Positions 1,624-7,152 of a DNA stretch of 40,196 nucleotides are shown in pieces (the first letter of the stretch is position 1; each line of letters starts with the position of its first letter). This stretch comes from Eubacterium sp. GTDB taxonomy: Bacteria > Bacillota > Clostridia > Lachnospirales > Lachnospiraceae. The position numbers were made by a program, and so were the translations under genes. Below the pieces are notes generated by a model, which saw only the letters and a list, made by a program, of their open reading frames with translations, was not told the DNA's origin and searched no databases. Where the stretch lies: the NCBI GenBank assembly GCA_024698585.1, contig JAILRB010000006.1:1-40196 (forward strand), in the 5' to 3' direction.

Positions 1624-3000
1624 ATGAGTGAAAATGTGAACACACAAAAAGGCTGGAGAGCCAACAAGTGGATTCGCGCAGCGATTCCTGCTTTGTTATT
1701 ACACTTTAGTATTGGTACTGTTTATTGCTGGTCATTATTCAGTGAAGCAATCTCAAAGGACATCGGTTGGGATAAGCCGGCCGTAGAATGGGCATTCAGT
1801 TTCGCAATCTTCTTCCTTGGTATGTCAGCAGCATTCCTTGGTGGTATTGTAGAAAAGAACATTCATTTATCATCCTTGATTGCAACAATCTGTTTTGCAT
1901 CAGGTATGGCAGGAACAGGATTCTTTATTTACTATGGTACACACCATACCCATTCTGTTCTCGCATTAATCGGTATCTATGTATGTTATGGTTTCATCAT
2001 GGGTGTTGGTCTTGGAACGGGTTATTTATCACCGGTTAAGACATTAATGCTTTGGTTCGAAGACCGTAAAGGTTTAGCAACAGGTCTTGCCGTTGCAGGA
2101 TTCGGTGGAGCAAAAGCGATTGCCAGCCCAATCATGGAATGGTTACAGCCAAAATTTGGTACAAGCAAAATGTTCTACATTCTTGCAGTTGTATACTTTA
2201 TCATGATGTTCATCGGACATTTACTTCTTAAGAAACCTGAAGGCTGGGTTGAACCGGCTAAGAAGGATAAGAGCGAAGGTATCATTGCTACAATCAAGAC
2301 AAAGGGTTGGGCAAACTACATTGGTATCTGGGTAATGTTCTACATCAACATTACTTGTGGTCTTGCATTAATCTCACAGGAAAAGATGATTGTTAAATGT
2401 ATTGGTCTTGCAGCATTCGCTGGTATCATCTCTACATTCTCAGCAATCTTCAATGCAGGTGGTCGTTTAGGATTCTCTGCATGGGCTGATAGCTTAAAAG
2501 ATAGAAACACAATTTACAAGTTAATCTTCATTCTTTCCATCGCCTTAACAGCACTTGTTATGGTAACAAACGGAATCAAGAACGCAGCAAATCCAGCAGA
2601 CGGATTTACATCAATCAGCGTTCAGAATGCAGTACTTGTTGTATTAGTTTTAGCATTGATCTTTATGGTAAACGCTGGATACGGTGGTGGATTCTCAAAT
2701 GTTCCTACATTATTATCTGACCACTATGGAATGGGTAACATCAGTGCAATCCACGGAATTACACTTTCTGCATGGGCATTCGCTGGTCTCTCAGGAAACC
2801 AGATGGCTACATGGATTGTAGGTAAATTCGGAAAGCCTGTAACAGGAACTCTTCACGGAGAAGAAGTAATCGTTAACCCAACAGGTTACCAGTATGTACT
2901 TTACGCAACAATCGCGTTATACATCGTAGCACTTTGCATGTCATTATTCTTAGTAAAGAAGAGCGACAAAGCAATCGCAGCTGAAAAGGCAGCAAAATAA
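1624..3000 (+). CDS. OFA-family MFS transporter (oxalate/formate antiporter type)
   Basis: The 458-residue, 12-helix major facilitator belongs to the oxalate:formate antiporter family. It opens with a tryptophan- and charge-containing cytoplasmic segment and a first helix (IPALLLHFSIGTVYCWSLF) typical of that family; the G-rich stretch GYLSPVKTLMLWF around helix 4-5 also fits. Family members exchange small monocarboxylates or oxalate/formate; the substrate cannot be read from sequence. TACGGAGT lies about 10 bases before ATG 1624. The gene has its own promoter and a strong terminator. Its codons favour C-ending forms (ATC, TTC, TAC, AAC) more than most neighbours, which suggests high expression. 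Confidence 0.88.
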   Translation: MSENVNTQKGWRANKWIRAAIPALLLHFSIGTVYCWSLFSEAISKDIGWDKPAVEWAFSFAIFFLGMSAAFLGGIVEKNIHLSSLIATICFASGMAGTGFFIYYGTHHTHSVLALIGIYVCYGFIMGVGLGTGYLSPVKTLMLWFEDRKGLATGLAVAGFGGAKAIASPIMEWLQPKFGTSKMFYILAVVYFIMMFIGHLLLKKPEGWVEPAKKDKSEGIIATIKTKGWANYIGIWVMFYINITCGLALISQEKMIVKCIGLAAFAGIISTFSAIFNAGGRLGFSAWADSLKDRNTIYKLIFILSIALTALVMVTNGIKNAANPADGFTSISVQNAVLVVLVLALIFMVNAGYGGGFSNVPTLLSDHYGMGNISAIHGITLSAWAFAGLSGNQMATWIVGKFGKPVTGTLHGEEVIVNPTGYQYVLYATIALYIVALCMSLFLVKKSDKAIAAEKAAK

Positions 3001-3019: not shown

Positions 3020-3054
3020 CCCCTTCATTTCTTAGGAAATGAAGGGGATTTTTT
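3020..3054 (+). terminator. OFA transporter terminator
   Basis: A perfect 12-bp stem (3020-3031 with 3036-3047), a TTAG loop and an ATTTTTT tail. Confidence 0.95.
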
Positions 3055-3081
3055 GTACCTTGGGATCCGGTGGAGGAGGAT

Positions 3082-3458
3082 GACCCTATGATGCGTGATT
3101 TGGCGAAAACTAAGGTACAGTTTCTGGAGCACTGAAAGGTGGAAATGCCTTATGAATGTCATTTTTGTGAAAGGTAGGGTACAGTTTCTGGAAGATTAAA
3201 AGTCGGCGATACCTTATGAATGTCATTTTTATAAAATGTAAGGTACAACTGTGGTTTGGCTGAGTGTTGAGGCATACCCTATATATTGAATATTGGCAAA
3301 ATACATGGTAGAAGTTGTGCACAATTGGATTTTTGGTGTACCTTACATATTGTAAGATTGTAAAAGATAGGGTAAAAGTTGTACGCAATCAAATTTGAAG
3401 TGTACCCTATAGATTGGTTTTTTTAAAAGGATAGGGAAATAAGAGTAGAATCCCCTAT
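3082..3458 (+). repeat. Array of an octamer near ATAGGGTA alternating in orientation every 32 bp
   Basis: This is the main content of the gene-free stretch 3001-3670. GGTA-type arms start at 3114, 3178, 3242, 3307, 3371 and (imperfect, GGGA) 3435. The inverse TACC-type arms start at 3082 (GACC), 3146 (TGCC), 3210, 3275, 3339 and 3403. Steps are 32 bp throughout except one of 33. Same-orientation copies therefore repeat at 64-65 bp. Sequence between arms is only partly shared: units at 3114 and 3178 share CAGTTTCTGG and TATGAATGTCATTTTT, and units at 3307 and 3371 share AAGTTGT. The last copy ends in an extra dyad, ATAGGG (3431-3436) with CCCTAT (3453-3458). A 64-bp period is not a multiple of three, so it is not a coding repeat. 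The function is unknown. Confidence 0.8.
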
Positions 3459-3539
3459 ACATATAAAGGGAAAAAACAGGCTGAGGTTGAAGAGAAAGTC
3501 AAGGTCATAATTTGTTAACAAAAATATAACAGAAAGTTA

Positions 3540-3581
3540 TTAGCACTCACTATTGACGAGTGCTAACAGAAGTGCTATAAC
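3540..3581 (+). promoter_or_regulatory. CIRCE operator (HrcA) with overlapping promoter of hsp20
   Basis: TTAGCACTC (3540-3548), a 9-base spacer and GAGTGCTAA (3558-3566) match the CIRCE consensus exactly. CIRCE is bound by the heat-shock repressor HrcA. TTGACG (3553-3558), within the CIRCE spacer, and TATAAC (3576-3581) are 17 bp apart, so bound HrcA would cover the -35 element. Between the repeat array and CIRCE (3460-3539) I see nothing clear. Confidence 0.95.
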
Positions 3582-3670: not shown

Positions 3671-4105
3671 ATGTTAACACCTAGTATTTTTGGAAGAGGA
3701 TTTTTTGATGACTTTAATGATTTTTGGACAGTGGAGCCAGCGTATAAGCAACATATGCCGGACTTTAAGAAAATGAGCACTGATGTAAAAGAAGTCGAAA
3801 AGGGATATGAAATCGATATGGAACTTCCGGGATTTAAGAAGGAAGAAGTTACAGCGGAGTTGAAGGATGGTTATCTTACCATTTCTGCCGAGCATAAAAC
3901 AGAAAATAATGGAGAGAAAAAAGAAGGAAAATATATCCGCCGGGAGCGGTATTATGGAAAATATCAGAGAAGCTTCTTTGTGGGCGACCAAGTGGAACAG
4001 GAAGATGTGACGGCAAAGTTTGAAGACGGAATATTGAAACTGTTTGTTCCGAAAAAAGAAGCAAAGCCTCAGGTAGAGGAAAAGAAGTATATTACAATTG
4101 AATAA
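3671..4105 (+). CDS. Hsp20/alpha-crystallin small heat-shock protein
   Basis: An ATP-independent holdase chaperone that keeps unfolding proteins soluble. The protein has 144 residues: a short aromatic N-terminal arm (GRGFFDDFNDFW), an alpha-crystallin domain from about residue 35 (YEIDMELPGFKKEEV ... LTISAEHK) ending in the family motif GILKLFVPK, and a short tail. The start at ATG 3671 is chosen over GTG 3665 because AAGGAGGT ends 7 bases before the ATG and directly at the GTG. It is under perfect CIRCE control, so induction by heat or misfolding through HrcA is expected. The gene is monocistronic. Confidence 0.95.
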   Translation: MLTPSIFGRGFFDDFNDFWTVEPAYKQHMPDFKKMSTDVKEVEKGYEIDMELPGFKKEEVTAELKDGYLTISAEHKTENNGEKKEGKYIRRERYYGKYQRSFFVGDQVEQEDVTAKFEDGILKLFVPKKEAKPQVEEKKYITIE

Positions 4106-7029: not shown

Positions 7030-7083
7030 AAAAATAAATAAAATAAGCCGCCTGAGAAGCCCCCATTTGGCTGCCCAGGCGGT
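7030..7083 (-). terminator. Riboswitch-controlled intrinsic terminator
   Basis: On the minus strand the arm at 7069-7083 (containing CCGCCTGGGCAGCC) pairs with the arm at 7047-7061 (GGCTTCTCAGGCGGC) and is followed by TTATTTTATTTATTTTT. The first arm is also the conserved 3' strand of the ZTP aptamer, so aptamer folding and termination exclude each other. Confidence 0.9.
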
Positions 7084-7142
7084 CGACGTTCTTACCTTCG
7101 TGCTCCCTGTGGTTTTCTCCACTAATCCGCCAGTCACACGAA
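7072..7142 (-). promoter_or_regulatory. ZTP riboswitch (pfl motif)
   Basis: The minus strand carries the pfl consensus: P1 TTCGTG (7137-7142) with CACGAA (7097-7102), then GTGACTGGCGG, a GTGG/CCAC P2 hairpin, CAGGGAGC, and the 3' CCGCCTGGGC that makes the pseudoknot with GGCGG. The aptamer binds ZMP/ZTP, which builds up when 10-formyl-folate is short. Because the 3' strand is shared with the terminator, ligand should allow read-through into purO-purH: an ON switch for the step that uses ZMP (AICAR). Confidence 0.96.
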
Positions 7143-7152
7143 TCATACAATT

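Follow-up and report, generated by a model that had tools for sequence, protein, structure and literature searches.

The alternating repeat at positions 3080 to 3440 of the DNA analysed here is probably a dispersed satellite of an array that belongs to a PD-(D/E)XK nuclease-like protein, which would bind arrays of both kinds as its cognate sites and be regulated or loaded by those ahead of its own gene. The window is the whole stretch analysed, 40,196 nucleotides of contig JAILRB010000006.1 of a Eubacterium sp. (Lachnospiraceae), and G000 denotes the genome that holds it (2.51 Mb, 65 contigs). Arrays of this design are linked to the nuclease gene and also dispersed through the genome, the periods of the gene-linked arrays are quantised to helical turns, and at one locus array and gene diverge jointly. 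The dispersal of the window array, and the match of its motif to a nuclease-linked array, go beyond what the window alone could show.

The array in the window

The first-pass annotation had described an octamer that alternates in orientation every 32 bp, about twelve times. The alternating repeat is real: the pattern TGTACCNTR-N22-YANGGTACA fits 6/6 inward dyads of the array at 1-3 mismatches, with 0.23 expected, and none of 100 shuffles of the window contained six such dyads. The autocorrelation proposed as a check, run over 3060-3480, peaks at 64 (0.54). Taken as 9-mers, the arms start at -3080, +3111, -3144, +3175, -3208, +3239, -3273, +3304, -3337, +3368, -3401 and +3432. The overall period of the annotation stands, at 64 bp with one of 65, but its even 32/32 steps do not; they arose because the frames differed between the two strands, and true reverse-complement 9-mers give steps of 31 and 33 in turn, once 34, with a sum of 64. 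Its plus-strand coordinates are not starts of ATAGGGTA, and position 3114 reads GGTACAGT. The array and its surroundings comprise the following features.

1624..3000, plus strand: MFS transporter gene (PF07690), left neighbour of the array
3020..3054, plus strand: terminator-like hairpin, perfect 12-bp stem at 3020-3047, then a T run
3080..3440, no strand: whole alternating array, 12 arms, 6 inward dyads, period 64 (one 65)
3080..3119: dyad 1, arms ATGACCCTA (-) and TAAGGTACA (+), 3 mismatches
3144..3183: dyad 2, arms AATGCCTTA (-) and TAGGGTACA (+), 3 mismatches
3208..3247: dyad 3, arms GATACCTTA (-) and TAAGGTACA (+), 2 mismatches
3273..3312: dyad 4, arms CATACCCTA (-) and CATGGTAGA (+), 3 mismatches
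3337..3376: dyad 5, arms TGTACCTTA (-) and TAGGGTAAA (+), 1 mismatch
3401..3440: dyad 6, arms TGTACCCTA (-) and TAGGGAAAT (+), final arm decayed, 3 mismatches
3540-3566: inverted repeat TTAGCACTC-N9-GAGTGCTAA, which we take to be CIRCE-like, ahead of hsp20 and downstream of the array
3671..4105, plus strand: hsp20 gene (PF00011), right neighbour of the array

The hairpin lies 3' of the MFS transporter gene and immediately ahead of the array. Among gene 3' ends that face an array, 27/51 have a terminator-like hairpin before it, a point against a structured RNA that is limited by the roughly one half without one. An Rfam scan of the window found nothing at the array; its sole match was a ZMP/ZTP riboswitch elsewhere, at 7066-7147 on the minus strand (61.3 bits).

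Two readings had been offered for the repeat, a cooperative protein array phased on the helix and a switching structured RNA. The former is favoured by steps that are tight even when no spacing filter is applied and by gene-linked periods near whole helical turns. The latter received no support: the fold z-score is only -1.84, and a covariation excess at arm position 3 under genome-wide shuffles is gone with within-array shuffles. RNA structure for the arrays is disfavoured by this z-score and by the absence of pairing covariation within arrays.

Whether the arms are better kept than what lies between them, as the annotation held, depends on the comparison. Against the closest relative, G398, the claim fails: the window array and its orthologue differ at 4/81 arm and 11/218 filler positions (the script marked 9 of the 12 arms), so that in these two hsp20 arrays the arms show no extra conservation. 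Pooled orthologous arrays favour the arms: over 8 alignments of 7 arrays, some of the alignments poor, 94/768 arm versus 341/1725 filler positions differ (odds ratio 0.57, p 3e-6). Between different arrays of G000 the inner filler is only 32% identical (median) and arms and spacing persist; conservation of the core is here by construction because arms were chosen by motif, from which the spacing is exempt.

A nuclease-like protein and the arrays ahead of its gene

The partner protein, P0001, has 264 aa and is encoded outside the window (G000:C13:93550-94341). Its own array has the same TANGGTACA arm as the window array and ends 22 bp 5' of the start codon. P0001 is homologous to P0002, the product of the gene after the array at 649651 in the related genome G282, and the left neighbours of the two genes differ. 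Neither protein reached a curated cut-off in Pfam or NCBIfam or matched a PHROG at 1e-3, and no Pfam family was found at 1e-3 in any of the 84 members of the nuclease family. The AlphaFold model of P0001 (pLDDT 92.7) shows a C-terminal alpha/beta domain preceded by an N-terminal region of helix and beta-hairpin. For that C-terminal domain, most of the top PDB matches are nucleases (Bax1, arenavirus endonuclease, DrdV, R2, BamHI) at weak E-values, the best being 5.7e-3 and none reaching 1e-3, and four viral models matched at <=1e-3. Among PADLOC candidates, the C-terminal domain matches PDC-S68 (2.8e-29), PDC-S69 (4e-7) and HEAT_CxxC_PDDEXK (1.5e-6), and E161, D192 and E207 are invariant in 84 relatives. 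The predicted fold is probably that of a PD-(D/E)XK nuclease; activity is unsure because the ExK lysine is missing, with E-H in its place.

Searches of mobile elements returned mainly the C-terminal part. Viral contigs held 8 nuclease loci, each matching residues 135-263 only, with peptide patterns that were derived from that part itself. Phage records with a nuclease match were three unannotated faecal contigs, and in the one checked (H9, 84% cover) no upstream periodicity was found. Among 72,556 plasmid records no relative covered 80% of P0001, and 7 records matched at 25-48% cover. In six of these seven (H1-H7) the P0001-type C-terminal domain sits in annotated AAA ATPases or helicases of distant bacteria; one is unannotated.

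The nuclease gene occurs in 116/396 Lachnospiraceae genomes and in 98/280 genera (genomes filtered at 90% completeness). Within the genus, the five genomes with arrays have 3-5 nuclease matches each, fragments counted (one in G404), and the other 18 have 0-1, a co-occurrence counted without correction for common descent. We assembled 92 copies, comprising 24 of the 26 genus matches (two fragments were dropped), 28 family loci and another 40 chosen approximately by rank among those with a long enough flank and no stop shown; three had too little upstream sequence, which left 89 for testing. Periods were searched between 40 and 110 bp only, at an autocorrelation cut-off of 0.44 that was set after looking and lies near the top shuffle values (0.34-0.45). 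Strong periodicity was present upstream of 69/89 copies, compared with 9/87 regions downstream, 4/63 regions upstream of other ORFs and 4/107 unrelated control pieces, and the strongest of the four periodic control pieces turned out to sit 5' of a further nuclease copy. Seven of the nine periodic downstream regions fall in the same period classes as the upstream arrays. The 20 copies below the cut-off have no clear upstream array; 12 of their best peaks are at 52-54 or 62-65, the others at 45, 47, 55, 61, 75, 84, 87 and 104. At one locus (L126, G415) periodic DNA flanks the nuclease gene on both sides, with 54 bp upstream and 74 bp downstream.

An alternating inverted motif was found in 64/69 periodic upstream regions, and 54 of these 64 arrays have at least three motif copies each way in register, compared with 0/40 control windows inside genes. 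In 41/69 the distance from the array end to the matched start is below 100 bp. Among the 24 copies of the genus, exact 7-mers revealed an alternating upstream array in 19 and an approximate search added L129, L133 and L136; L130 is periodic with no alternating motif found, and L125 shows neither. The motifs vary from copy to copy, among them GGTACA, CGGGTAC, GCATATA, GGGTGCA, CACCCAC, TTACGTG, TAGGTGG, TACGAAT and CTAGTAG. A simple promoter consensus, which is too strict, placed a promoter between array and gene in 6/69 and before the array in 4/69; by eye, promoter-like sequence lies between array and gene in L123 and L137, of which the script flagged L137 and not L123. A ACATAATGT-like box, also noted by eye and unrelated to the arm motif, recurs near nuclease genes, upstream in L117, L119, L129, L130, L131 and L137. 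In L123 several of the 94-bp units carry it in their long spacer, and it may explain the 94-bp period in G282.

The periods of the 69 gene-linked arrays are 52-54 bp (33 arrays, counting three at 106-108 as double), 62-65 (28), 71-75 (6), 94 (1) and 45 (1), with none at 55-61, 66-70 or 76-93. These classes correspond to 5, 6, 7 and 9 helical turns; the sole exception, 45 bp (L191), is without an alternating motif. In a Rayleigh test at 10.5 bp, with the three periods >100 halved and L132, L142, L174, L191 and L207 left out as not in alignment A2, R was 0.89 for 33 protein clusters at 60% identity and 0.80 with 20 clusters; the p of 5e-5 for the former is the lowest that 20,000 draws allow, with periods drawn uniformly from 45-95. 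Because the repeats come near 5, 6, 7 or 9 turns, arms of the same orientation are expected on one face of the DNA. We know of no reason for RNA periods to follow helical turns, and the quantised periods argue for protein-bound DNA and not for RNA hairpins.

Dispersed arrays, motifs and paralogs

At <=3 mismatches G000 contains 73 dyad matches, compared with 16 for the reversed pattern, and at <=1 mismatch 40 compared with 0; the other 396 Lachnospiraceae genomes have at most two each at <=1 mismatch. These matches form at least 14 arrays, the window array and one gene-linked array included, with the same motif, the same 31/33 grammar and, for the most part, unrelated filler. Across the genus, dyad matches number 65 in G000, 61 in G398, 31 in G404, 14 in G282 and 4 in G403, which has one 26-arm array, and the majority of genus genomes have about as many TGTACC dyads as the control. 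Among named genomes, the exact three-arm pattern was found only in three MAGs, Eubacterium sp. Tb.RUG.99, RUI397 and Lachnospiraceae RUG11188. TGTACC dyads in viral contigs amounted to 20 stretches with one dyad site apiece. Counted with no spacing filter in the five genomes, 174/178 inner steps are 30-32 bp (an earlier count of 205 inner steps used such a filter), and 173/179 outer steps are 32-34 (141) or 62-64 (32, all in G282). At the dyad centre, two positions are A/T in ~99% of 112 non-redundant G000 arms and in 88-92% of 51 G282 arms. Arrays of relatives differ by whole units, for example by 128 bp in the C33 array, and some arrays are near-homogeneous.

The arrays avoid divergent gene pairs: with both neighbours called, 24/38 lie between co-directional and 14/38 between convergent genes, and 0/38 between divergent ones (automatic ORF calls; orthologous arrays included; 7/45 arrays with no neighbour on one side dropped). 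No common function emerged among 20 flanking proteins scanned, the named ones being varied. Orthologous places hold arrays in different species, as behind a gltD-like gene in G000 and G282, where the gltD-like proteins are 92.6% identical and the arrays have periods of 64 and 94 and unlike filler. One array stands immediately 5' of rbfA in an apparent infB-rbfA operon (G000:C41:132023-132382, L081 4024-4383; gene names assigned by eye). It is present in G000, G404 and G398 and absent there in 17/20 genus genomes with a match; comparison of the insertion boundaries in 20 genomes made neither a clean boundary nor a duplication readable. The single-contig chromosome of G282 has 64 matches (control 0) at 18 loci, four of them single dyads, and none in the 694 kb of G282:C1 1.58-2.28 Mb, on approximately the other side of the chromosome from the parS cluster (525 kb). 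This gap is a weak pattern, recognised only after the fact and based on 18 loci. The dispersed arrays checked had no nuclease next to them. A search with 6 query proteins (E<0.01) detected no nuclease remnants beside the window array and 19 other array pieces, and the sole piece that matched, L043, contains a nuclease copy with its own upstream array.

Nuclease paralogs within one genome have different motifs. Dispersed arrays of a nuclease's own repeat type were seen for two paralog motifs in G000 and for G282, and only approximately in G398, G404 and G403. The second of these motifs in G000, TAGGTGG, belongs to the nuclease on C62 and has 17 matches in that genome (control 0), 5 at the C62 gene and 12 on C1, C25 and C41, contigs on which the search detected no nuclease copy. 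G403 has a TAGGTGG array on C76 besides the gene-linked one on C64. TAGGTGG dyads also occur in G398 (4) and G404 (3; control 0), and the motif is absent from the nuclease upstreams read there, which argues against strict dependence on a resident gene. For the TGTACC family, the consensus of dispersed and nuclease-linked arrays agrees only in G000 and G282: arm position 2 of the resident nuclease's array is C in 5/5 arms of G398, 12/12 of G404 and 5/7 of G403, and the dispersed arrays of these genomes have A or G there. Replacement of the nuclease allele after the arrays had spread may account for this mismatch; it could equally mean that another protein binds the dispersed arrays.

The clearest case of joint change is a gltD-like locus of G000 and G404, with the order gltD-like gene, array, nuclease, sigma-factor-like gene (the last by eye). 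Identity is 95-100% on the flanks, apart from 86% in a final gapped piece; it is ~50% across the array, climbs from 50% at the start of the nuclease gene to 88% at its end, and is back directly after the stop codon. Array motif and protein differ here as one block. In a comparison that covered 50 of the 64 arrays, 6/7 pairs with N-terminal identity >70% share a motif, compared with about 2/35 at 50-70% and ~1% or fewer at lower identity; above 60%, 8/14 pairs share a motif and 6/14 do not, including L138/L122 at 71%. Six pairs have C-terminal halves >80% identical and N-terminal halves <60% identical, and in 6/6 the motifs differ. The partial correlation with motif similarity is 0.069 for the N-terminal half given the C-terminal half and 0.070 for the reverse, with p 0.02 in each case, and L178 (G101) and L123 (G282) have a common motif, GTACCCCG, at an N-terminal identity of only 27% and periods of 75 and 94. 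The N-terminal half may read the motif, an assignment that we only infer, since neither half stands out statistically and L138 and L178 depart from the pattern.

Explanations and related systems

Taken together, the comparisons lead us to propose that a P0001-type protein would bind the 9-12-bp arms as many protomers, with arms of the same orientation aligned on one DNA face. Arrays ahead of the nuclease gene would control or load the nuclease; the dispersed arrays, the window array included, would be non-autonomous satellites that reached the 3' ends of genes and the gaps between genes, to be retained, lengthened or shortened there by whole units. Binding, cleavage and the mode of spread are inferred, and a plausible route of movement would be that the nuclease cuts and copying repair follows. 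More tentatively, the Lachnospiraceae may harbour a family-wide class in which every nuclease recognises an alternating, helically phased array of its own, gives rise to dispersed arrays with that motif and swaps specificity; on that same tentative reading, array and reading domain would be exchanged together at a fixed locus, and older arrays would record past specificities.

Gyrase and IHF bind BIMEs in E. coli, and the arrays might likewise organise the chromosome, bound by a host nucleoid or topology protein for which the nuclease gene is merely one more site. Their position downstream of genes (0/38 between divergent genes), their orthologous placement in different species and the array-free 694 kb of G282 roughly opposite the parS cluster would suit such a role. 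We nevertheless consider it unlikely: paralogs in one genome have different motifs, two of which also form arrays away from their gene; TGTACC dyads do not rise clearly above the control in most of the genus; at one locus a different nuclease allele comes with a different motif; and the terminus gap was seen post hoc on 18 loci. A role in defence, in which a solitary nuclease would sit inactive on its own arrays until a phage attack frees it, the dispersed arrays enlarging the sink, finds an echo in the PADLOC matches of the C-terminal domain, in the cassette-like divergence between conserved flanks and in the patchy occurrence of the gene. By eye, however, no defence gene was recognised beside copies at seven loci read, none of the 92 loci has a neighbouring ORF with the [ND]PP[YFW] methylase motif, and the plasmid records hold no relative covering 80% of P0001, so that this explanation appears quite improbable.

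Very unlikely, in our judgement, is an RNA antitoxin in the style of type III toxin-antitoxin systems, transcribed ahead of the gene and holding the protein in its RNA units. A tandem array does precede the nuclease-like gene in most tested copies, often closely (<100 bp before the matched start in 41/69), but the periods are quantised to helical turns, pairing covariation within arrays is absent and the fold signal weak, promoter-like sequence lies between array and gene in L123 and L137 (by script, L137 only), and dispersed arrays checked have no adjoining nuclease. Functionless decay of a tandem duplication would explain the whole-unit length differences between relatives (128 bp in the C33 array), the near-homogeneity of some arrays and the lack of extra arm conservation in the hsp20 arrays of G000 and G398; it is hardly credible, given that periods follow helical turns, spacing is tight, inverted motifs persist across unrelated filler and the arrays are linked to one gene family.

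Among known systems the nearest in manner of working is RAYT/REP. REP and BIME units alternate in orientation in arrays, REP units form stem-loops, and RAYT is an HUH tyrosine transposase. An enzyme gene with its own repeat type, and dispersed intergenic repeats in the same genome, characterise RAYT/REP in the passages cited (PMC8049555). To that extent the nuclease arrays are alike, sharing an enzyme gene with its own repeat type, dispersed intergenic copies in the genome, which match that type in G000 and G282 and only approximately in G398, G404 and G403, arrays that alternate in orientation and long vertical persistence. They differ in that the P0001 model matches mostly nucleases, weakly, and not an HUH Y1 transposase, in arms of 9-12 bp that form no stem-loop of their own, with ~22 nt between them and no covariation, and in a nuclease-linked array period set by helical turns. 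The nuclease-array system works somewhat like RAYT/REP and is not a member of it, enzyme type and repeat structure being unfit.

Other resemblances are narrower. ToxIN combines a repeat array ahead of a toxin gene with a different protein fold; the likeness is in layout only, a tandem array immediately 5' of a nuclease-like gene, whereas the present arrays consist of inverted DNA motifs that alternate at close to whole helical turns, are also dispersed, and accompany another protein fold. In plasmid parC/ParR, centromere repeats lie upstream of the gene for their binding protein, much as phased repeats here precede the gene of the presumed binder; here, however, that binder is nuclease-like and many arrays are dispersed. 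The TnsA endonuclease has a PD-(D/E)XK fold. Tn7-like ends are arrays of TnsB sites (PMC8649781). Inverted binding-site arrays and a PD-(D/E)XK enzyme, both predicted in our case, are common to the two systems, but no TnsB or TnsC was recognised beside the copies read and no paired ends were seen. CRISPR was rejected, the arms being short and inverted and no cas gene being recognised among the neighbours read. Restriction-modification was likewise rejected, as an [ND]PP[YFW] ORF of >=150 aa was near 0/92 loci (a crude motif test on loci of ~2-4 kb). In a full-text literature search that covered few subscription papers, no nuclease with its own alternating array was among the matches listed. 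The arrays ahead of many relatives of the gene, often with different motifs, suggest an undescribed nuclease-and-repeat system.

If the proposal is true, it would define a new kind of repeat-enzyme partnership, independent of RAYT/REP and present in ~29% of the Lachnospiraceae genomes searched. It points to sequence-specific nuclease-like proteins with many different targets, and the 54 natural protein-motif pairs with clean motifs would make their reading code directly testable. The system may also account for other unnamed intergenic arrays of gut bacteria.
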